Shown here in pieces: positions 8,346 through 53,843 of a stretch of 64,000 nt of DNA; positions within the stretch are counted from its first letter, which is position 1, and each line of letters starts with the position of its first letter. Where the stretch lies: contig NZ_JACJPP010000007.1 in assembly GCF_014696135.1 (NCBI RefSeq), positions 806,001 to 870,000 on the forward strand, in the 5' to 3' direction. Both the position numbers and the translations under genes were made by a program. The notes under the pieces are model-generated. The model was not told the origin of the DNA. It searched no databases and saw nothing but the letters and a program-made list of their open reading frames with translations. The DNA is from Nodosilinea sp. FACHB-141. GTDB taxonomy: Bacteria; Cyanobacteriota; Cyanobacteriia; Phormidesmidales; Phormidesmidaceae.

Positions 8346-9563
8346 ATGACCTCCGTAACGCCTGACTCTCTCTCTTCTGCACCCCCTGAAATATTGGCCC
8401 TGGGACCGGTGGCCTGGGCCAAAAAAAATCTGTTCAGTGACTGGTTCAACAGCCTCCTGACCGTCGTTATTGTCGGTATCCTCGGCTGGGGTATTTTTCG
8501 CCTTGCTTCTTGGGCTTTGACCGTCGCTCAATGGCAGGTCATACCCAATAACTTCGGTCTGTTTATGACCGGAACCTTTCCCTCAGGGCTATATGCCCGC
8601 ATTTGGGCACTGTTGGCTGTGGTTTGCGGTTTGGCAGGGCTGTCATGGGGAGTGCTGGGGCGCAATGTCTCTATCCTGTTTAGCCGCAGCGTGCTGATTG
8701 GCCTGGGGCTAGTATGTGCCTTTATTGTGCTGTTTCCGCCGACTCGGCCCAGTTCCTTAAAGCTGCTGCCGATGGTGGCGCTGGTGGCGATCGCCGCCGC
8801 AGGGGGTCGCCAGGTAGGGCGAAAATTCCCGGGCATTGGCAAATGGGTGTCTCTAGCCTGGTTTTTGTCGTACTTCGTGGCTCTGTGGCTGATTGGCGGT
8901 GGCCTCGGGCTCACCCCCGTATCCACCAACGACTGGGGCGGGCTGGTGCTGACGCTGTTTACCGCCGTGAGCGGTATTGTGCTGTGCTTTCCGCTGGGGC
9001 TGCTGCTGGCCCTGGGGCGGCGCAGTGCGCTGCCGGTGGTGCGCTTGCTATCTACCGTCTACATCGAACTGGTGCGGGGTGTGCCCCTGGTGGCCTTTCT
9101 ATTCATGGGGCAGGTGATGATTCCGCTGTTTTTGCCGATTGGGTCGCGACCCGATCGCATTTTACGGGCGGTCATTGCGCTGGCTCTGTTTAGCGCGGCC
9201 TACCTGGCCGAAAACGTGCGGGCGGGCTTGCAAGCGGTACCTCGCGGTCAGCGCGAGGCCGCTATGTCTTTGGGGCTCAATACTCCCACTACCCTGGGCC
9301 TGATTATTCTGCCTCAGGCGCTCAAGATCGCGATTCCGGCGATCGTCGGGCAGTTTATCAGTCTGTTTCAGGACACAACGCTGCTATCGATTGTGGGTCT
9401 GGCAGAGCTATTGGGTATTGGTAAATCAATCTTGGCCAACCCAGCCTATTTAGGACGCTACGCCGAGGTCTATCTGTTCCTAGCGGTGATCTACTGGTTC
9501 TTTTGCTACGCCATGTCCTTGGCCAGCCGCAAAATTGAGGAGAAGCTCAATACTGAACACTAG
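8346..9563 (+). CDS. Polar amino acid ABC transporter permease (AapM/NatH type)
   Basis: This is the second permease subunit of the same importer. The 405-residue protein has several N-terminal hydrophobic helices, then the permease core beginning GGLVLTLFTAVSGIVLCFPLG near residue 197. VYIELVRGVPLVAFLFMGQ and the EAA loop ENVRAGLQAVPRGQREAAMSLGLN near residue 293 follow. It starts 3 bp after the first permease. The ATPase gene lies 184 bp downstream, with no obvious terminator between them. Confidence 0.92.
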   Translation: MTSVTPDSLSSAPPEILALGPVAWAKKNLFSDWFNSLLTVVIVGILGWGIFRLASWALTVAQWQVIPNNFGLFMTGTFPSGLYARIWALLAVVCGLAGLSWGVLGRNVSILFSRSVLIGLGLVCAFIVLFPPTRPSSLKLLPMVALVAIAAAGGRQVGRKFPGIGKWVSLAWFLSYFVALWLIGGGLGLTPVSTNDWGGLVLTLFTAVSGIVLCFPLGLLLALGRRSALPVVRLLSTVYIELVRGVPLVAFLFMGQVMIPLFLPIGSRPDRILRAVIALALFSAAYLAENVRAGLQAVPRGQREAAMSLGLNTPTTLGLIILPQALKIAIPAIVGQFISLFQDTTLLSIVGLAELLGIGKSILANPAYLGRYAEVYLFLAVIYWFFCYAMSLASRKIEEKLNTEH

Positions 9564-9747: not shown

Positions 9748-10527
9748 ATGACACAGTTTCAGACGGAGCAACCCTCTGCCCACCACATGAGCACCGAGCC
9801 GGTGATTGTGGCCCGCGATGTGGAAAAGTGGTACGACAACGGTTTCCACGTGCTCAAGGGCGTCAACATGACGGTCTATAAGGGTGAAGTGCTGGTAGTG
9901 ATGGGGCCGTCTGGGTCAGGCAAGTCGACCTTTATTCGCACCTTTAACGCCCTGGAGCCCTATCAAAAGGGCTCCATTGAGGTCGATGGCATCACGATTT
10001 CCCACGACCTAAAAAACATCGAGGCCATCCGCCGTGAAGTGGGCATGGTGTTTCAACAGTTCAACCTGTTTCCCCACCTGACGGTGCTGCAAAACGTGAC
10101 GTTGGCCCCCATCTGGGTGCGTCGCTGGCCCAAGGCCAAGGCGCAAGAAGTCGCCATGCAGCTACTAGAGCGAGTGGGCATTTTGGAGCAGGCCCACAAG
10201 TTCCCCGGTCAGCTGTCGGGTGGTCAACAGCAGCGGGTGGCGATCGCCCGTTCCCTCGCCATGCAGCCCAAAGTCATGCTGTTCGACGAACCCACCTCTG
10301 CCCTCGACCCCGAGATGGTGCGCGAGGTGCTTGATGTCATGCGGGGCCTAGCAAAGACTGGCATCACAATGGTGTGCGTTACCCACGAGGTGGGTTTTGC
10401 CCGTGAGGTGGCCGATCGCGTCGTGCTGATGGATGGCGGCTACCTCATCGAAGAAAACACTCCCCAGGAGTTTTTCAGCAACCCCCGCGAAGACCGCACC
10501 CAAAAGTTTCTTTCTCAGATTTTGTAG
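9748..10527 (+). CDS. Polar amino acid ABC transporter ATP-binding protein (AapP/GlnQ type)
   Basis: This cytoplasmic ATPase energises the importer. The 259-residue product has Walker [10 protein letters not shown] near residue 52, the Q-loop in [13 protein letters not shown] and the signature [16 protein letters not shown] near residue 160. Walker [13 protein letters not shown] and the switch His in CVTHEVGFA complete the set. A purine-rich AGAGGAAA precedes ATG 9748. Its 184-bp separation from the permeases could hold its own promoter; in some cyanobacteria the ATPase is shared by several transporters (known for BgtA), and that is possible here but not shown. Confidence 0.93.
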
Positions 10528-11160: not shown

Positions 11161-11574
11161 ATGCGGCTGCTACAAAAGGTGCTGGCTGGGGTTTGCCTAT
11201 CTTTTGGGCTGTTCATTGTGCTGGCCGTAACAGTTGAGATCTTTAACCCTACTAGTGACGCCGAAGACCGTTCGGGCGCGGTGGCGGCCATAGTGATATT
11301 TGGGCTGCCACCGACCGCTCTAGGTGCCTGGCTGATCTGGAACTTGCGCCAGCAACACGAGCGATCGCTGGAAACCCTCGCCGATCAGCAAGAGCAGCGG
11401 TTTCTCCAGCTCCTTCAAGACCACAAAGGCGACCTGACAGTGCTTCAGTTTGCCACCGCAACCCAACTGTCGCTCGAAGAGTCCAAAGTTTATCTCGACG
11501 AAAAAGCGCAGCAGCTAAATGCCTCGTTCGACGTTTTAGACAACGGAGCCGTAGTCTACCGCTTTCCCCTATAG
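11161..11574 (+). CDS. Two-helix membrane protein with winged-helix-like C-terminus, copy 1
   Basis: I cannot name the family. The 137-residue protein has a membrane helix at about residues 6-27, a polar acidic loop (DAEDRSG) and a second helix at about 38-58. A charged, probably coiled-coil stretch is followed by a soluble domain from about residue 85 (GDLTVLQFATATQLSLEESKVYL...GAVVYRFPL) that reads like a small winged helix. It is clearly paralogous to the next gene: same length, same helix layout, shared NASFDV and the VYRFPL end. A GTAGAGGATA ribosome-binding-like stretch precedes ATG 11161. Confidence 0.75.
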   Translation: MRLLQKVLAGVCLSFGLFIVLAVTVEIFNPTSDAEDRSGAVAAIVIFGLPPTALGAWLIWNLRQQHERSLETLADQQEQRFLQLLQDHKGDLTVLQFATATQLSLEESKVYLDEKAQQLNASFDVLDNGAVVYRFPL

Positions 11575-11763: not shown

Positions 11764-12180
11764 ATGCGGATGTTACAGAAGGCCTGGGCTGGAACTTGCC
11801 TGCTGTTTGGCCTATCAATTACCCTTCTAGCGACAACCCAACTAGTTAGCCCCGACGACGATGATTGGGAAGACAGGGCCGAGACTGGTTTAGCGTTGGT
11901 CATGTTTGGCGTCGCTCCCACGGCACTGGGCTCCTGGCTGGCGTGGAATCTGCGTCACGGCAATCAGCAAACATCCCAATTACTGTCACTACAGCAAGAG
12001 CAGATGTTTTTGCAGCTGCTTCAAAACCAAGAGGGAGACCTCACCATCATTCAGTTTGCTGCCGCCGCGCAGATACCGGTTGAGCAGGCCAAAGCGTTCC
12101 TCGATCAAAAAGCTCAGGTGCTCAACGCGTCCTTTGATGTCAAAGACACCGGGGCGATCGTCTATCGCTTTCCTCTGTAG
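11764..12180 (+). CDS. Two-helix membrane protein with winged-helix-like C-terminus, copy 2
   Basis: This tandem paralogue of the preceding gene has 138 residues with the same plan: helix, acidic loop (SPDDDDWEDRAE), helix, Gln-rich linker, then a winged-helix-like domain ending TGAIVYRFPL. Even the leader is duplicated, with GTAGAGGAGACGGCT before ATG 11764. The acidic loop is stronger here than in copy 1. Its stop codon is only 4 bp from the convergent serS stop codon. Function is unknown; membrane anchoring with a cytoplasmic DNA-binding or protein-binding domain is inference. Confidence 0.75.
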   Translation: MRMLQKAWAGTCLLFGLSITLLATTQLVSPDDDDWEDRAETGLALVMFGVAPTALGSWLAWNLRHGNQQTSQLLSLQQEQMFLQLLQNQEGDLTIIQFAAAAQIPVEQAKAFLDQKAQVLNASFDVKDTGAIVYRFPL

Positions 12181-12184
12181 ACGT

Positions 12185-13462
12185 CTACAGATACTCGCGG
12201 TTGAGGTAGGGTTGCAGTACCTCAGGTACTCGCACCGAGCCGTTGGCCTCCTGGTAGTTTTCGAGAATGGCGGCCATGGTGCGGCCAATGGCTAGGCCAG
12301 ATCCGTTGAGGGTGTGTACATACTGAGTGCCTTTTTGCCCGGCCTCCTTGAAGCGCAGATTAGCGCGGCGGGCCTGAAAGTCTAGACAGTTCGAGCAGCT
12401 AGAAATCTCCCGATAGCTGTCGGAAGAGGGCATCCACACTTCGAGATCGTAGGTTTTGCAACTTGAGAAACCTAGGTCGCCGGTGCAGAGCGCCAGCACC
12501 CGGTAGGGCAGCTTGAGCTGTTGCAGAATGTCTTCGGCATCACCCACCAGCGCCTCTAGCTCGTCGAAGGAGGTGTCCGGGTGAACGAATTTGTACATCT
12601 CCACTTTGTTGAACTGGTGGAGGCGAATTAGCCCGCGCGTGTCTTTGCCGTAGCTGCCGGCCTCGCGGCGAAAGCAGGGCGTATAGGCGCAGTAGTGAAT
12701 CGGCAGCTGATCAGCGGCGAGAATGTCGTCGCGGTGCAGGTTGGTGAGAGGCACCTCGGCGGTGGGAGTAAGCCACAGGTCATCGTTGCGGCACTGAAAG
12801 CTTTCTTCAGCAAACTTGGGCAGTTGGCCTGAGGCGGTCAGCGCGGCAGAGTTTACTAGGTAGGGAGGAATGACTTCGTAGTAGCCCGCTTTGGTGTGGC
12901 GATCGAGCATGAACGAAATTAGCGCCCGTTCTAGCGCTGCACCTGCGCCTTTTAGGACGACGAAGCGGCTTTGGGCAATTTTTTCGGCAGCACGCTTAAA
13001 GTCAAGAATGCCAAGGATTTCGCCAATTTCCCAGTGGGGCTTAGTGGGCTGTTTGGGCAGATACTCGTCGCCCCAGCGGCGCACTTCGACATTTTCGGTT
13101 TCGTCTTTGCCAACGGGAGTGGTGTCGCTGGGCAGGTTGGGCAAGCCCAGCAGAATAGCCTCGATCTGGGCTTTAATCTCGCGCTCCTGGGGTTCCAGAG
13201 TTTGCAGCTCAGTTTTGACCTGGTTGCCTTCGTCTTTAAGGGCGGTGACTTCTGGACCGTTGGGAGCGGCCCCGGCTTTGATGGTTTGGCCAACCTGTTT
13301 GCCGATCTCGTTGCCGCGGGCCTGAAGCTGCGATCGCACCGTTTCGATCTGGCGTTGCTGCTGGTCTAGCTCTAGCAGCGGGGTCAAATCATACTTGCCC
13401 CGCTTACCCAGAGCAGACTGCACCCGCTCCGGGTTTTCTCGTATTTGCTTTAGATCTAGCAC
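12185..13462 (-). CDS. serS: Serine--tRNA ligase
   Basis: SerRS charges tRNA-Ser. The 425-residue product shows the N-terminal coiled-coil tRNA-binding arm (residues about 25-110) and the class II core. Visible motifs are the TAEVPL motif region, [28 protein letters not shown] near residue 270 and [20 protein letters not shown] near the end. Length is normal for the family. It ends 4 bp from the convergent upstream gene, leaving no room for an independent terminator. Confidence 0.97.
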
Positions 13463-13536
13463 AGCAGCCCTCTACAATCTGAAATCTGATTTTTTGACAA
13501 AAAACTCCTTGCCAATAAATCAGAATATCAGCATTC

Positions 13537-13776
13537 CTAAAATACCTGCTCGATCTCAGCGATTTCAGGAATAAACTCGCGCAGGCGACGCTCAATGCCC
13601 ATGCGCAGCGTCATGGCCGAGCTGGGGCAAGAGCCACAGGCGCCCTGCAGACGGAGTTTGACCACTGGGCCGTCGATTTCGACCAGCTCAACATTGCCGC
13701 CGTCGGCCAGTAGGTATGGGCGCAGTTCATCCAAAACCTGTTCCACGTTGGGAGGGGTAAGTGCAAGCGTTTCCAT
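13537..13776 (-). CDS. nfu: NifU-like C-terminal-domain Fe-S scaffold (Nfu)
   Basis: This small scaffold assembles and transfers Fe-S clusters; in cyanobacteria and plastids such proteins serve photosystem I and ferredoxin maturation (family knowledge). The 79-residue protein is a single NifU C-terminal domain with [13 protein letters not shown] near residue 23 and the cluster-binding CGSC at residues 47-50. The spacing to serS on the same strand is 74 bp, so co-transcription with serS is possible. Confidence 0.93.
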
Positions 13777-13903
13777 GGGCTATAGCTACCAAAAGTATTG
13801 AGAGGCCATCTCCATTCTAAGGATTTTGGCCCCAAACCAGAGCCTGATCTAATCGACAGATCTCCCCAGTGATAAAAGCTATCTCTTCCCTAGCGCAATC
13901 TCT

Positions 13904-14395
13904 ATGGGAAACAACATGGGGTTTGATGCCAAGCAAATGGGCAGCTACACCCGCGTTTCTGAACCGGTTCCGCCGCCCCAGGATATGGCTAAGCGCAGCC
14001 AAGTCACCATTGAGGGGGTCACCAACCCTACCGTGCTGGCCTCCATGGACAACCTCAATGCCAACGACTTCAACGAGCTGATTGAACTTTTCACCCCTGA
14101 CGGTGCGCTACAGCTTCCCTTTCAGCGCCTCATTACCGGCAAAGAAGGCATTCTTCGGTTCTTTCAGGAAGATTGCCAAAATCTCAAGCTGATTCCAGAG
14201 CGCGGAGTCACCGAGCAGGCGGAAGATGGCTTTACCCAAATCAAGGTGACCGGCAAGGTGCAGACGCCTTGGTTTGGCGCTGGCGTTGGCATGAATATTG
14301 CCTGGTGATTTTTGCTCAACCCCGAGGGCAAGATTTTCTTTGTCGCCATTGACCTGCTGGCCTCACCGAAGGAACTGCTTAACCTGGTTCGCTAG
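13904..14395 (+). pseudogene. OCP C-terminal-domain gene with in-frame TGA
   Basis: The reading frame encodes the NTF2-like C-terminal domain of orange carotenoid protein: EPVPPPQ linker, DNLNANDFNELIELFTPDGAL, QNLKLIPERGV and GKVQTPWFGAGVGMNIAW. After this Trp the frame hits TGA (14306-14308). The same frame then continues as FLLNPEGKIFFVAIDLLASP to a TAG at 14393-14395. From memory the family reads AWRFLLNPEGK, so TGA stands exactly where Arg (CGA) belongs. The carotenoid-binding N-terminal domain is absent, although the MGFDAK...EPV segment looks like the end of that domain plus the linker. The Tyr expected in the NYMDN motif is Ser (LASMDN). It is either a decayed ocp or a C-terminal-domain homologue with a stop; a sequencing error is possible for the TGA alone. 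Confidence 0.8.
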
Positions 14396-14504
14396 GACGA
14401 TGGTTGTAGAGGGTGGGTTAGCCGGGCGATCGCCAGCCTGAGGGTCTAATTCAACCTAGGCTCACTTGAGGCTGGCTCATCGCTGGCTACCCGTGTATCC
14501 TTTC

Positions 14505-14547
14505 CTGGCTGTTGGGTCTCTCCCGAAACGGAAGACCCAGCAGCCAG
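14505..14547 (+). terminator. Hairpin downstream of the OCP fragment
   Basis: Arms 14505-14519 and 14533-14547 pair over 15 positions with one G-U wobble and a 13-nt loop. The T-rich tail is short (TGTTTT). It lies 110 bp after the end of the OCP-like frame and would terminate that transcript. Confidence 0.6.
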
Positions 14548-14767
14548 CATTGTTTTGGGTCTGGCCAAGGTAGGTGTAGGGCGGTGGCTAAGGCTCGCTC
14601 AGCGTCCAATCAACATTGCAAAGTTTTGCAACATGTCTCTAATATAGAAAAACGTTAAACAAAATCATTGGCTGAGTAATGGCTTAGCCGATGGCGGTTA
14701 TGGCATTTTTAACGATCTTTTCTCGAGATTCTTTCTTTAAAGTTGCAATGCATACCAGTGAACTCTA

Positions 14768-15075
14768 GTGGTATCTGAGGAAAAAGACTTGCTAAGGCAG
14801 CGATCGCAACGGCCTATAGCCGCGAGATCAACGGATTAGTCCAGGTTGTGCGCGATCGCGCCAACAGCCTCAACAGCATGGATGACCTTTGGCAACTCCA
14901 CGACTTTCTTAGCGCGCGCCGTCACGAACTCGACGGCAAATATGACGATCGCGAGTCGGCGCTGCTGTTTGTCTTTTCGAGTTTTGTGAAAGAAGGCTGG
15001 CTGAGCTTAGACGAGCTAGAGGGGCTAGACCCAGCCAAACTATCGCAGATTACTGCCCTCACCCGCATGTTCTAA
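14768..15075 (+). pseudogene. frp: Fluorescence recovery protein (FRP)-like gene, apparent frameshift
   Basis: FRP speeds return of photoactivated OCP to its resting state. The frame ending at 15075 carries the FRP core: MDDLWQLHDFLSARRHELDG, KYDDRES, and ...LDELEGLDP near the end. The usual N-terminal helix is present upstream without a start codon: LAKAAIATAYSREINGLVQV, preceded by an in-frame TGA at 14776. In the frame opened by GTG 14768 the codons read VVSEEK and would join the helix exactly if the A5 run at 14781-14785 were A6. So one base appears lost. The alternative is a short product from GTG 14848 lacking helix 1. FRP identity is from remembered sequence; the frameshift is inference. 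Confidence 0.68.
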
Positions 15076-15135
15076 TCCGGTTCGCAGATTCAGAACGGGC
15101 TGCTTAATTTTGGCAAGTTTGGAATTACATAAATG

Positions 15136-15167
15136 AAGGGGAGGCGCTAAAACTAGCGCCTCCCCTT
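15136..15167. terminator. Bidirectional terminator between frp-like gene and hli
   Basis: AAGGGGAGGCGCTA (15136-15149) pairs with TAGCGCCTCCCCTT (15154-15167) across a 4-nt loop, with a T following on the plus strand. It separates the convergent frp-like and hli genes. Confidence 0.75.
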
Positions 15168-15210
15168 TCATCTGTTATTTAGTTTTTTAACCTATGGGGT
15201 TGTAGAAACT

Positions 15211-15354
15211 TTACATGAGGCCGATTTGGGACAGAATGCCTTGCCCGGTTAGAAACTCGGTAGCTACACCAATGACGAAGCCTAGCATGGCTAGACGGCC
15301 GTTCCAGGTTTCTGCAAAGTCTACAAAGCCGAACTTGGTTTGGTTGGTTTCCAT
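15211..15354 (-). CDS. hli: High-light-inducible protein (Hlip), 47 aa
   Basis: Hlips are one-helix chlorophyll a/b-binding-type proteins that dissipate excess energy and assist photosystem assembly. This short gene reads METNQTKFGF at the start, then the signature AETWNGRLAMLGFVIGV with the chlorophyll-ligand pair E...N/R, and ends SQIGLM. It has 47 residues and a single membrane helix, typical of the smallest Hlips. Its upstream region holds a 17-bp palindrome at 15399-15415. A second hli gene lies 177 bp upstream on the same strand. Confidence 0.92.
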   Translation of the reverse strand: METNQTKFGFVDFAETWNGRLAMLGFVIGVATEFLTGQGILSQIGLM

Positions 15355-15398
15355 GGTGGATATTTCCTAAGTGATAAGAGGGCCAAAAATCAATATCC

Positions 15399-15415
15399 TG
15401 TTACTTAACGTAACA
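15399..15415. promoter_or_regulatory. 17-bp palindrome upstream of hli
   Basis: TGTTAC and GTAACA are mirrored around 5 bp, 45 bp upstream of the hli start codon. The half-sites loosely resemble the TTACA repeats of the HLR1 element bound by RpaB at high-light promoters (known), but the arrangement is inverted rather than direct, so the assignment is weak. Confidence 0.35.
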
Positions 15416-15531
15416 CAGGTGTTTTCGATTGTGGGTATGGAAACAATGACTTTTTGATTAGGGTGATTTAATCGCTAAGGCCGTTAGCGCTAGCCCAAAC
15501 TCAGCAAAGGCTTTGGCTATAGATGAGTTAG

Positions 15532-15729
15532 TCAAGTAACAATGCCGTGGCCTGTGGCTGCTTCAAACAGCACCGCCGATGCAAAGCCCAGCATCGCTAG
15601 ACGACCATTGAGCTTCTCAGGGTATTCGTTAAAGCCAAACTGCTGACTGTCATCGACGTAAACTTTTGGTTCAACGGCAAAGTTATTCAGACGACCGCCC
15701 TCTTCGGTGGTGTAACCGCTAGTGGTCAT
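15532..15729 (-). CDS. hli: High-light-inducible protein (Hlip), 65 aa
   Basis: This second Hlip has 65 residues: a polar N-terminal region (MTTSGYTTEEGGRLNNFAVE), then FGFNEYPEKLNGRLAMLGFASAV with the ExxNGRLAMLGF chlorophyll-binding motif, and a short C-terminal tail. A TCTCC (GGAGA on the coding strand) lies just upstream of ATG 15729 as a ribosome-binding site. TTTACA/TGTAAA half-sites occur 45-70 bp upstream. It is transcribed toward the shorter hli gene and may share a promoter region with it. Confidence 0.93.
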   Translation of the reverse strand: MTTSGYTTEEGGRLNNFAVEPKVYVDDSQQFGFNEYPEKLNGRLAMLGFASAVLFEAATGHGIVT

Positions 15730-15909
15730 AGGTTGTTCTCCTTTGCTTTGTGGCTCGATTGTGACTCAATGTAAACAAATATTGCAATACTCTTTACATT
15801 TTTGATGAATTAAGCTGCGCTGTACATTGGCTATAGCTGCCCTGTCCCCGGTTGCGAAGAGCAGGGCAGCGGCAAAACTCTGGGCGCTGAACTACTAACG
15901 GCAAAGGCT

Positions 15910-16674
15910 ATGACTTTGATTGATTTGCAGGGCAGCACGGTGTTGGTTACGGGAGCCTCGCGAGGAATTGGGTCTGCGATCGCTCGCACTCTACACGATG
16001 CTGGAGCGGCAGTTATTCTTCACTACAGTCAAGGTGAGGCCGAGGCTGAACAGCTCGCCACTGACCTAGGGCACGAGCGCACTCACTTGGTTCAGGCTGA
16101 CTTGGCGGTGCCGGGGGCGGCCCTAGTGTTGTGGGAACAGTCCTTGGCCTGGCGAAGCAGCGTGGATGCTGTGATTAACAATGCCGCGACGATGCCCGCC
16201 GCCTCGATTACGGCTGAGTGGGAGCAGTGGGCAACGGCCTGGCAAGACACGCTTCAGGTCAACCTTGTGGCTATGGCCGATCTGTGTCGAGAGGCGATTC
16301 GCTACTTTCAGACTCAAGGGGGCGGCACGTTGGTTAATTTGGCTAGTCGGGCGGCGTTTCGGGGTGATGGGCCAGAGTTTATGGCCTATGCGGCGTCGAA
16401 GGGTGGGGTGATCGGGTTGACTCGTACGATCGCGAAGGGGTTTGCTGCAGATGGGGTGCGGGCCTATGCGATCGCGCCGGGTTTTGTGCGTACCGATCGC
16501 ATTGAGCAGGTGATGGCGGAGCGGGGGGCAGAGTATGTGACGCGGGATATTCCGATGGGGGCGCCAGCGGAGCCGCAGGATATTGCTAATTTGGTGGCGT
16601 TTTTGGTGGCGGGGTTAGCGCCCCACGCGACGGGGGCGACGTTTGATGTGAATGGGGCGTCTTATTTTCACTAG
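15910..16674 (+). CDS. Short-chain dehydrogenase/reductase (FabG-like)
   Basis: This is an NAD(P)-dependent oxidoreductase of the classical SDR family. The 254-residue protein has the cofactor loop TGASRGIGSAIA (residues 14-25), NNAA near residue 91, and the catalytic residues Ser146, Tyr160 and Lys164 in YAASK. It ends with the typical GATFDVNGASYFH. The substrate cannot be deduced; 3-oxoacyl-ACP reductase annotation would be a default only. ATG 15910 starts four codons before the family's usual beginning. It is a single-gene unit divergent from the hli genes. Confidence 0.88.
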   Translation: MTLIDLQGSTVLVTGASRGIGSAIARTLHDAGAAVILHYSQGEAEAEQLATDLGHERTHLVQADLAVPGAALVLWEQSLAWRSSVDAVINNAATMPAASITAEWEQWATAWQDTLQVNLVAMADLCREAIRYFQTQGGGTLVNLASRAAFRGDGPEFMAYAASKGGVIGLTRTIAKGFAADGVRAYAIAPGFVRTDRIEQVMAERGAEYVTRDIPMGAPAEPQDIANLVAFLVAGLAPHATGATFDVNGASYFH

Positions 16675-38713: not shown

Positions 38714-39613
38714 TCAGGATGTGGGGACGAGTTGGGCGACAAAAGGGGCGATCGCCGCCGCCGTCTCTTGAGGTTTTTCCAGGTGGGGCACATGGCCACA
38801 GTTGGGAATCCAAACCAGCTTGCAGCCGGCGATCGCCCGCTCAAACCGCCGCGCGTCTTTTATGCCCAAAATTTTGTCCTGCTCGCCCCAGATCACCAGG
38901 GTAGGGCAGGCGATTGCGGGAATTTTGGTGGTCAAAAAGTTGTAGCCGCCGCTCTTAGTGAAGGCAATCAGGGCCTCCTGCCAGCCAGGGCACTGGAGGT
39001 GCAGGGCGGCGCACAGTTCTGCATCGGCGGTGACGAAGGTTTTGTCGAAGTAGGCCTGACGGCTAATGCTACGCCGCACCCTAGGACTGCGCAAAAAGGC
39101 CGTGGCCCAGCTATCCAGTGGCGGCACCATTAGGTTGCCCATGGCAGGGCCAGCGGCAAAGCCAGCGGCATCAATCAGCACTAGGCCAGCTACGGCCTCG
39201 GGGTAGGTCAGGGCAAAGTCGATGGCGGCGGCCCCGCCCATTGAGGCCCCTACTAACACCACCGGACGGTTGATCTGCTGTTGCCAAAAGCTGTACAGGT
39301 GCAGCTTGATGGCCCCAGGCGAGAGATTAGGGATGAGAGTGCGATCGCTAAACCCAAACCCCAGCAAATCGACGGCCCAGGCTTGGGAGCCCAGCAGCGG
39401 CAGCAGCCGGCGAAACTCAAGCAGCGAGCTGTCAAATCCAGGGATCAGCAGCAGAGGCGGTGTGTTGCCGCCATCCGTTCCTGCCACGTAGGCTGTGGGA
39501 ATAGCGACGTCAGCGAGCAGTGTGTTGATTGCCGCCACCTGTACTTGGGCTGCCATTGCGATCGAGGTGGGTTCACTTAGCCCCGCAGCGGCGGGCAATA
39601 CAGAGACAGCCAT
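38714..39613 (-). CDS. Alpha/beta-fold hydrolase
   Basis: The 299-residue protein has the alpha/beta-hydrolase core: oxyanion segment LLLIPGFDSS near residue 55, nucleophile elbow GASMGGAAAIDFA near residue 122, acid region VIWGEQDKILG near residue 243 and the catalytic His in NCGHVPHLEKP. A start at MAAQVQVAAIN (39556) is an equally good alternative, since neither ATG has a clear ribosome-binding site. The reaction is unknown. It lies upstream of gcvP on the same strand with a 143-bp gap. Confidence 0.87.
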   Translation of the reverse strand: MAVSVLPAAAGLSEPTSIAMAAQVQVAAINTLLADVAIPTAYVAGTDGGNTPPLLLIPGFDSSLLEFRRLLPLLGSQAWAVDLLGFGFSDRTLIPNLSPGAIKLHLYSFWQQQINRPVVLVGASMGGAAAIDFALTYPEAVAGLVLIDAAGFAAGPAMGNLMVPPLDSWATAFLRSPRVRRSISRQAYFDKTFVTADAELCAALHLQCPGWQEALIAFTKSGGYNFLTTKIPAIACPTLVIWGEQDKILGIKDARRFERAIAGCKLVWIPNCGHVPHLEKPQETAAAIAPFVAQLVPTS

Positions 39614-39692
39614 AGGTGAAGATAGTGCGAAACCTGCTGCCTATTCTCACGCATTCTTAGTCTCTGAGCCAGGCTACCCCAAAGATTTGTTC

Positions 39693-40550
39693 TCACTGGT
39701 GCAGGTTGATCTGGTGAGACCCAATAGCGATGCCATATTCACCGTAGACGTCCTGCCCTAGCAGGCCGTAGCTGCCGCCGATAGCGACTATCACCTGTTC
39801 GCGACGGAGGCCACCCAATTCCACGGCATCCACATAGCCAACAGGCAGGCTCACCACGCTGCCGTCAGCGATTCTGGCCTGGATTGCGCCCACAATGGTG
39901 ACCCCCACCGCCTGGGCCATCTCGGCGGTAATTAAGGTGCCGGTGGCCCCGGTGTCAAACAGCATGGGGAAGGTCTGAGCACCGCTGCTGCCCTTTAGGG
40001 TAACGGCCACAATCGGTGTGCCTCCCTGCCGCCCCTGAATCGGGATTTGGGCCGCCAACCCAGCCGGTAAAACTGCCTTGGGGGCAGGGGCAAGGGCCGC
40101 CGCTGGCACGATAGAACCCGTGGCCCGCCTCTGAGCCGCCGTCAGGTGTTGTTTATACTCCTGGGCCTTGGTTTGGGCCTGAGCGTGGTTGGGGCTGTTG
40201 CTGGGCACCTGCTCCATCAGGTTGATCGCCTGCTGCCAGCGACTGGCGGCCAGCTGCCAATCAGCCTTAGACTGGGCCGACTGACCAATGGCGACAGCGC
40301 TAGTGGCCCGATTCACCGCCTCTCGAAAGGAATCTGGGGTCGGGGCGGGTGGCACCGGAGCCGACTCGGCGGCAATGGGTAAAACGAGCGGTTCAGGGGC
40401 GGTAGCCGCCTCAGAGGCCTCAGTAGACACCTCGGCGGGACCAACCGGCAGCAATGTATTTAATGTATTGACAGACAGGCCACAGCCTACCAAACCGAAG
40501 GCCACAGTGGACAGCATGAACCTACTTGCGATCGCCCTGGCACTTTCCAT
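39693..40550 (-). CDS. Retropepsin-like aspartic protease lipoprotein
   Basis: The 285-residue product, read from ATG 40550, has a signal peptide with a lipobox ending LVGC (Cys23) and a Pro/Ala-rich region. A helical segment that may form a TPR-like hairpin follows (residues about 60-140). The retropepsin domain begins VAVTLKGSSGAQTFPMLFDTGATGTLI with catalytic DTGA near residue 205. GLLGQDVYGEYGIAIG fits the second conserved region. Such single-domain proteases work as dimers. The ORF extends 24 codons upstream to 40622 but the lipoprotein signal supports the inner start. Substrate unknown. Confidence 0.8.
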   Translation of the reverse strand: MESARAIASRFMLSTVAFGLVGCGLSVNTLNTLLPVGPAEVSTEASEAATAPEPLVLPIAAESAPVPPAPTPDSFREAVNRATSAVAIGQSAQSKADWQLAASRWQQAINLMEQVPSNSPNHAQAQTKAQEYKQHLTAAQRRATGSIVPAAALAPAPKAVLPAGLAAQIPIQGRQGGTPIVAVTLKGSSGAQTFPMLFDTGATGTLITAEMAQAVGVTIVGAIQARIADGSVVSLPVGYVDAVELGGLRREQVIVAIGGSYGLLGQDVYGEYGIAIGSHQINLHQ

Positions 40551-52325: not shown

Positions 52326-53075
52326 TCAACTCAAATAGGAAGAGGCTAAGGAGGCGCCAACCCGAGGGCTATGGCCGTTAGACTCGGCGGAAACGCGCTC
52401 AACATTGAAGCGATAGCCTACGTTGCGCACTGTTTGAATGATATTAGGCTGCCTCGGGTCAACCTCGATCTTCTTGCGCAGGGAGAGAATGTGGGTGTCG
52501 ACGGTTCTAGGATTGTCGATCGCATCAGGCCAAGCGCGCCGCAGTAAATCGGTACGGCTCAGGGGAGAGCCGGCCGCTTGAGTCAGCACGTATAGCAGGC
52601 TAAATTCCTGGGGGGTCAAATCGATGTAGTCGCCGCGAAAGTTGACGCGCCGCTGCACTAGGTCAATGTTCAAGTCGCCATAAGTGAGAGATGCTGGCGC
52701 ACTCATCAGCCGTACGCGCCGGGTTAGCGCCTCGACTCGGGCCAAAAATTCCTGCATGCCGAAGGGCTTGGTCATGTAGTCGTCGGCTCCGGCTCTTAGT
52801 CCGGTCACGATATCGGTTTCTGTATTGCAGGCCGAGAGAATCATAATCAGGGGTTGCCCCTGGCTGTGCAACCACTTACACAGCTCAACACCGTCCCCGT
52901 CGGGAAGTTGCGAGTCTAAAATGACTAAGTCTGGCTGTCGGCTCTGAAAAAGGTCACGAGTGCGGACAACATCTGCCGACTGAAAAACCCTGTAGCCAGC
53001 TTGCTGAAGATGCCAGCCCAGGAGCGATCGCAAATGGGGGTTGCCCTCAATAATCTGTACCGATACAGCGCCCAC
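52326..53075 (-). CDS. OmpR-family response regulator, atypical receiver
   Basis: The 249-residue protein has an N-terminal receiver and a C-terminal OmpR winged helix (LTYGDLNIDLVQRRVNFRGDYIDLTPQEFSLLYVL... through VRNVGYRFNVE). The phosphoacceptor is kept (VILDSQLPDGDG, Asp near residue 54), as is the KPF lysine. The usual acidic pair near the N-terminus is replaced by Glu-Gly (IIEGNP). Phosphorylation may therefore be weak or absent, as in NblR-type regulators; that comparison is a guess. Start is GTG 53075. The adjacent divergent gene encodes another degenerate receiver. Confidence 0.85.
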   Translation of the reverse strand: MGAVSVQIIEGNPHLRSLLGWHLQQAGYRVFQSADVVRTRDLFQSRQPDLVILDSQLPDGDGVELCKWLHSQGQPLIMILSACNTETDIVTGLRAGADDYMTKPFGMQEFLARVEALTRRVRLMSAPASLTYGDLNIDLVQRRVNFRGDYIDLTPQEFSLLYVLTQAAGSPLSRTDLLRRAWPDAIDNPRTVDTHILSLRKKIEVDPRQPNIIQTVRNVGYRFNVERVSAESNGHSPRVGASLASSYLS

Positions 53076-53453
53076 TGGGTTTCGTTATAAACGGCAAATT
53101 TTACTTGCTAAACATAGCAAAGGCCCCTAGGGGTTTTTGTAGCTAGGGTTACCCAACCATGACCTAGGGTGTGTGGCGAAATCGAGGGCTAATCGTACAG
53201 AACGTTATTAATAGCTGAATGGCCGGTAATTTTTGGCTCAATAATTTGCATAACTTAATTATAGTTTTGCTTTTGCAATGTGAGGGCTTTGGCATGCCTT
53301 TAGACAGACTAAAAAAAACGGAAGATTGAAATAAGTCTAAGTTTCTAAAATGGCGTGAAAACCCTAGTTTATAGTCCAAAAAAAGCGGCCTTATGTTGAT
53401 AAACGCTGTTTTTGGACTAGCTAAGATGGAAGTCAATTGCGTCGTTTGCAGCC
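53076..53453. other. Divergent intergenic region
   Basis: This 378-bp AT-rich spacer separates two divergent receiver-domain genes. It includes a long A/T-rich stretch (53280-53400) with poly-A runs and likely holds both promoters. No gene is recognised. Confidence 0.4.
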
Positions 53454-53843
53454 ATGACCTTAACTCGTGACTATATCCTTGTGCTCGACCCAGAGTGTGA
53501 TCACCGTGACGACGCTCATTCTTTAGAGACTGACCTGCAGTACCCCGTGTTTGTGGCTAGTTCTGCCGAGCAAGCGGTTACCCGCGTCAACCAGGGAGCA
53601 CCCTGTCTCGTTATTTTGGTCGGCAATAATTTTCAAGATTGGTCACCACCGTTAGTGAATCACCTGCGACAGCATGGGCAGGCTCCTGATATGACGATCG
53701 TGGCTTTAACAGACTCGACCAGCCCGCAATGGAACTACAGCGAAGATACTCCAGGGCTAGATGGATTGCTGGTGCAGCCGCTCAGTATGGACATTTTGCG
53801 ATCGCTAGTCGAATCTGCCTTTGCCCGCACTATTTGTCAATAA
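53454..53843 (+). CDS. Stand-alone pseudo-receiver domain protein
   Basis: The 129-residue protein has the alternating beta-alpha pattern of a CheY-like receiver: YILVLDPECDHRDD, PCLVILVGNN, TIVALTDSTSP and DGLLVQPLSMDILRSLVESAF. The phosphoacceptor Asp position is Val (VILVGNN) and the conserved Lys is Gln (LLVQPLS), so it cannot be phosphorylated in the usual way. Such pseudo-receivers act as protein-interaction modules. A divergent neighbour encodes an OmpR-type regulator that is itself atypical. Confidence 0.75.
   Translation: MTLTRDYILVLDPECDHRDDAHSLETDLQYPVFVASSAEQAVTRVNQGAPCLVILVGNNFQDWSPPLVNHLRQHGQAPDMTIVALTDSTSPQWNYSEDTPGLDGLLVQPLSMDILRSLVESAFARTICQ

Follow-up and report, generated by a model that had tools for sequence, protein, structure and literature searches.

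Identification of an ocp pseudogene

The window, a 64,000-nucleotide stretch of genome G000 (31 contigs, 5.9 Mb in total), contains a broken ocp gene followed by a broken frp gene. OCP is a light-switched quencher of the phycobilisome, and the fluorescence recovery protein (FRP), the product of frp, resets OCP1. The ocp frame (13904-14395, plus strand) runs for 134 codons to a TGA (14306-14308), and then for another 28 codons to a TAG (14393-14395). When the TGA is read as Arg, residues 4-163 correspond to the C-terminal NTF2-type domain of solved OCPs. The best match is 7ekr_A (E=1.8e-83, 281.6 bits), and the Pfam NTF2 match of the frame scores 52.8 bits. By these scores, the likeness of the remnant to the OCP C-terminal domain far exceeds chance. 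The re-read frame and the two matches agree with the earlier note on this DNA, which had described an OCP C-terminal domain broken by an in-frame TGA. A complete open OCP frame is absent from the locus, being interrupted by that codon. PF09150 (Carot_N) has no match at the locus, and fusion to an N-terminal domain is not seen there. In addition, NCBIfam gives no match to the remnant protein in either its shortened or its read-through form. On the basis of the frame, the structure-chain and Pfam matches, and the alignment, we assign 13913-14395 (plus strand) to a pseudogene that comprises the linker and C-terminal domain of ocp.

The remnant resembles OCP in the sequences of its C-terminal domain and linker, but lacks the N-terminal domain, the start, and the upstream region, as well as the 29 residues that end the frame. 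Like the CTDH proteins (e.g., Anabaena All4940), it is a single NTF2-type domain without an N-terminal domain. However, it is of the OCP type, scoring 281.6 bits against 7ekr and 97-102 bits against the All4940 chains. A comparison of this kind had been proposed earlier, and on solved chains it places the remnant nearer to OCP. Unlike a CTDH, the remnant is not a complete single domain with a tail, as the last strand and the tail of the predicted fold are missing.

Deletion of the upstream region and the N-terminal domain

Close Nodosilinea-type relatives carry an intact OCP gene at the same locus. The nearest named ones are Leptolyngbya sp. FACHB-60 (L046), Phormidium tenue FACHB-1052 (L047), Leptolyngbya ULC186bin1 (L048), and Nodosilinea sp. 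WJT8-NPBG4 (L049). In blastn comparisons, both flanks of the window align to one point in L046, L048, and L049, and the window is short by a net 610 bp. L047 differs from these three by a few bases. The ocp ATG lies at 9524, and residue 160 at 10001, in each of the four relatives. Therefore, about 130 bp of upstream DNA and codons 1-159, which include the start and encode the N-terminal domain, have been lost. The earlier statement that the N-terminal domain is missing and the linker is kept is thereby borne out. These breakpoints and the alignment place the deletion junction at 13912-13920 (plus strand); a short ACAT match at this point in L046 may have directed the event.

The DNA to the left of the junction (13777-13911, plus strand) aligns, in L046-L049, to DNA that precedes the ocp ATG by at least about 130 bp, and it contains the ATG at 13904. 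In L046, this ATG aligns about 142 bp 5' of the native ocp start. As judged from the alignment, it is former upstream DNA and not the native start of ocp. A scan with the sigma-70 consensus finds no site in window positions 13740-14000, and none ahead of the intact ocp gene of L049. The left neighbor of the locus (13537-13776, minus strand, 79 aa in the list of open reading frames) is intact. We call it nfuA/NifU-like from its sequence, and nfuA is found beside serS in 21 of the 24 genus SerS loci examined.

The TGA codon and altered residues of the C-terminal domain

The residue at the TGA site is Arg in all 80 loci compared, a selected set that consists of the best 80 of 452 named loci. This agrees with the claim that OCPs have an Arg between the Trp and the Phe. 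The codons used in this set are AGA (26), CGC (24), CGG (17), CGA (6), CGT (6), and AGG (1), and all 80 frames are at least 300 codons long. A single change from CGA to TGA had been put forward as the simplest event. However, the four nearest named relatives carry CGG at the site that corresponds to the TGA (14306-14308, plus strand), so from that codon the TGA took at least two substitutions.

Three other residues differ from this selected set. Query positions 47, 71, and 76 are Ser, Leu, and Leu in the window, and Tyr, Pro, and Pro in 80/80 of these best-scoring loci. The remark that the carotenoid-contact Tyr is now Ser thus holds at position 47. By numbering match, we take this site and the Trp preceding the TGA to be the equivalents of Tyr201 and Trp288 of Synechocystis OCP. 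The Trp is kept as the final residue before the TGA, and the Tyr201 equivalent is Ser; the carotenoid-contact pair of OCP is therefore incomplete. In OCP, Tyr201 and Trp288 hydrogen-bond the keto group of the ketocarotenoid, according to PMC9909426.

An AlphaFold model of the read-through domain, computed with 19 relatives, has a mean pLDDT of 77.5, with residues 1-27 below 50. In this model, residue 135, the site of the TGA, is positioned inside the second-last predicted strand (residues 130-138), and a strand (144-151) and a helix (155-162) are predicted beyond it.

A broken frp gene next to the ocp remnant

The frp remnant (14748-15075, plus strand) is recognized by its PF18032 match (118.8 bits, G000:C7:820782-821063) and by alignment with L046-L049. 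The seventh codon is TAG (14766-14768, plus strand), and it is CAG in 4/4 of these relatives. In addition, two 1-bp deletions relative to them follow positions of about 14772 and 14787. The remnant thus resembles FRP in its PF18032 match, but the nonsense codon and the two frameshifts leave no intact frame of about 109 aa, and the matching frame lacks an intact native start. Since frp adjoins, the dead ocp gene is most likely OCP1. FRP is present in virtually all OCP1 genomes, as stated in PMC10172135.

Evolutionary rate of the remnant

The dN/dS of the remnant is 0.051-0.063 against G019, G004, G010, and WJT8, whereas the six pairs among those four give 0.021-0.043. The comparison with G020 and G017, which are more distant, gives 0.076 and 0.077, and eight intact pairs at that distance give 0.047-0.076. 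The ratio is thus raised about twofold against the four near relatives and lies at the top edge for the two distant ones, yet it is low throughout. Because dN/dS is far below 1, and is only at the top edge against G020 and G017, most of the changes predate decay, and the test carries little weight. Nor are private amino-acid changes peculiar to the remnant. Such changes, counted at columns that are uniform in the other 19 sequences and with a second genome, G008, left out as identical, number 4 in the remnant and 0-6 elsewhere, with 6 in G002. The rate signal is weak, in the expected direction, and consistent with recent decay. The case for a pseudogene rests on the lesions and not on the rate.

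In the same comparison, G020 and G017 (L011, L013) have OCP C-terminal domains that differ strongly from those of G019, G004, and G010 (L008-L010), with dS above 1. The SerS proteins of all five are 95-97% identical to that of the window. The high dS despite this identity suggests that genomes of the genus have exchanged entire ocp alleles.

OCP and FRP across the genus

An intact OCP frame is found in 18 of the 26 genus genomes, and in 18/18 of these an frp match lies nearby. The dead allele with the TGA is found in two, G000 and G008. The earlier note had named, as a finding that would speak against decay, relatives that all carry the TGA with purifying selection on the shorter product; these counts show a different distribution. 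In G006, OCP residues 1-106 are kept and are followed by a stretch with an inverted repeat, and an open 113-aa frp is present. Neither an OCP-type C-terminal domain nor FRP is found in G014, G016, G018, G021, and G025, although the absence in G021 is uncertain because that genome is 87% complete. G016 and G025 have nfuA beside serS, with no ocp in the examined flank. G007, G009, and G015 also have nfuA beside serS without ocp there, yet carry ocp elsewhere. Absence of OCP is not rare, since OCP is present in 90% of 690 genomes by the figure given in PMC12059629.

A SerS DNA tree covers 24 of the 26 genus genomes; no full SerS match was obtained for G003 and G021. In it, G000 and G008 form a sister pair (100/99), and G006 is placed elsewhere. 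There is good support for two pairs that join an absent to an intact state, G014/G002 (100/100) and G016/G007 (100/99). The tree implies two label changes to dead and four to absent, three of the latter forced by starred branches. As the tree represents one gene, leaves 8 of 21 inner branches open, and permits regain of ocp, we confine ourselves to two statements. The disruption of ocp in G000 and G008 is independent of that in G006, and further changes of ocp state have occurred within the genus.

The stretch of about 100 bp that follows OCP residue 106 in G006 (L165, G006:C169, 6000-6102), at the point where that gene lacks its C-terminal domain, has terminal inverted repeats, AAGGGCACCTCGA, and is MITE-like. 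The 13-mer AAGGGCACCTCGA is absent from G000 and G008, and occurs once on each of two further G006 contigs.

A low-divergence tract common to two genomes

G008 carries the same ocp deletion and TGA allele and the same frp lesions, and its frp has a further nonsense change of its own (AGA to TGA). Over the window, 2,759 of 63,254 covered positions differ between G000 and G008 (4.36%). In contrast, the tract that holds both dead genes (13440-16480) contains 8 mismatches, and its edges are marked by the last mismatch before it, at 13325, and the first after it, at 16530. When the window is divided into 250-base bins, 35/253 are at or below 0.8% divergence, and the longest run, 12 bins, lies at this tract. 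A run of 12 is reached in 0/10000 shuffles of the bins, and the longest in any shuffle is 6. The shuffle shows clustering of low divergence and not its cause. In comparison with L049, the two pieces of the tract that align are about 10% and 14% divergent, so the tract is not a slow-evolving region. Since the identity with G008 extends over about 3 kb including intergenic DNA, it cannot be taken as a sign of purifying selection at the ocp remnant.

Other low-divergence runs in the window are 2-5 bins long, the next longest being the 5 bins at 38751-40000, so exchange is not special to the ocp locus. Such short tracts suggest that exchange is common between the G000 and G008 lineages. Near-identical short tracts against the 4% background are seen at 38751-40000 and at 52501-53750. 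Within the shared tract itself, small open frames lie on the minus strand at about 15212-15355 and 15532-15729; they look to us like genes of high-light-inducible proteins.

Remaining carotenoid proteins

Genome searches find no intact OCP in G000 or G008. Each genome has four PF09150 matches in open frames of 167-214 codons, which are of the HCP type, and no OCP-type C-terminal domain match lies beside any PF09150 match in either. Both have a CTDH-like gene, and the G000 copy is an open frame at G000:C22:249654. Three of the four G000 HCPs were compared with solved relatives: two are nearest to 5fcx/5fcy and 6mcj, and the third is nearest to 8qx5 with only 107 bits. In G025, which is also without OCP, an HCP matches 8qx5 at 169 bits. 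We take 8qx5 to be HCP4. If so, the quenching HCP may be absent from G000, as far as three of its four HCPs indicate.

Interpretation of the locus

The window very probably contains an ocp pseudogene, most likely of OCP1, beside an frp pseudogene, as the outcome of ordinary gene loss. Disabling lesions are present relative to intact orthologs at the same locus, and the decay is probably recent. Comparison of the locus in relatives, recommended earlier, reveals intact ocp there, and the deletion and the change from CGG to TGA in the window. The remnant is more decayed than the earlier note saw. In the proposed sequence of events, the function of OCP would have been lost before ocp and frp decayed under little constraint. 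As the alignments show, a deletion has removed the upstream region, the start, and the N-terminal domain of ocp, the TGA interrupts the second-last predicted strand of the C-terminal domain alongside altered invariant residues, and frp has a nonsense codon and two frameshifts. Homologous recombination would have carried the dead tract from one lineage to another.

The 134-aa frame with its ATG stays open, which counts against plain decay and accords with a different outcome, in which ocp minus its N-terminal domain now serves as a putative 134-residue CTDH-like carotenoid carrier. The linker and most of the C-terminal domain are retained, and a family of single-domain CTDHs exists (PMC6123778). 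However, the TGA falls within a strand, the last strand and tail helix of the predicted fold are lost, the carotenoid-contact Tyr is Ser, the upstream region is gone, frp is dead, and a separate CTDH-like open frame is present in the genome. PMC6123778 also reports that Anabaena CTDH-C103F without 11 tail residues took up no carotenoid from HCP1 and yielded about 20% holo-protein from membranes, although it still delivered carotenoid, more slowly; loss of the tail thus blocked uptake from HCP1. We consider a short carrier very unlikely. An error of sequencing or assembly at the TGA, in a gene that otherwise works, is harder still to credit. A single codon does break an otherwise good frame, but the identical TGA is found in a separate genome, G008, that is 4.4% diverged over the window, a change from CGG needs two base errors, and the deletion and frp lesions stand whatever the codon. 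The earlier note had already argued that a former ocp decayed and that no single sequencing error explains the changes; this is upheld by the deletion, the TGA, three changed invariant residues, the broken frp, and the allele in G008. Recoding or readthrough of the TGA, which would restore the full C-terminal domain, is suggested by the conserved sequence that continues to the native stop. It is just as improbable as an error, because the site has ordinary Arg codons in 80/80 of the best 80 of 452 loci, the gene has lost its native upstream region, its start, and its N-terminal domain, and the adjoining frp is broken by a TAG and frameshifts.

As for the shared tract, recent homologous exchange is suggested as the simplest reading. 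Common descent combined with a locally low mutation rate would need no exchange and fits the sister placement of G000 and G008 in the SerS tree. We regard it as improbable, given the sharp edges at 13325 and 16530, the extension of the tract over genes and intergenic DNA alike, and the divergence of about 10-14% from L049. A further idea, to which we give slightly more but still little credence, is that loss of OCP and FRP is favored in some Nodosilinea niches and spreads as a dead tract by homologous recombination, which would make the null allele a transferable adaptive trait.

The locus offers a snapshot of a two-gene photoprotection module dying, with effector and partner decaying side by side. 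Disruption of OCP has occurred repeatedly within one genus, and a dead copy seems to have been passed between lineages. The likely, predicted consequence is that the strain lacks OCP-based quenching and leans on other protection. Such natural OCP-negative strains with close OCP-positive relatives should be useful in studies of when cells can do without OCP quenching. In annotation, the fragment should not be labeled a new short CTDH. Among the OCP papers listed by literature searches, no title or abstract opening contains a description of an ocp pseudogene like that of G000. The locus has the look of ordinary gene loss, and not that of a new protein or an unusual genetic code.

Elsewhere in the window, at 11161-11574 and 11764-12180, two adjacent similar frames of 137 and 138 aa cross-match at about 72%, and are likely to be a tandem duplication.
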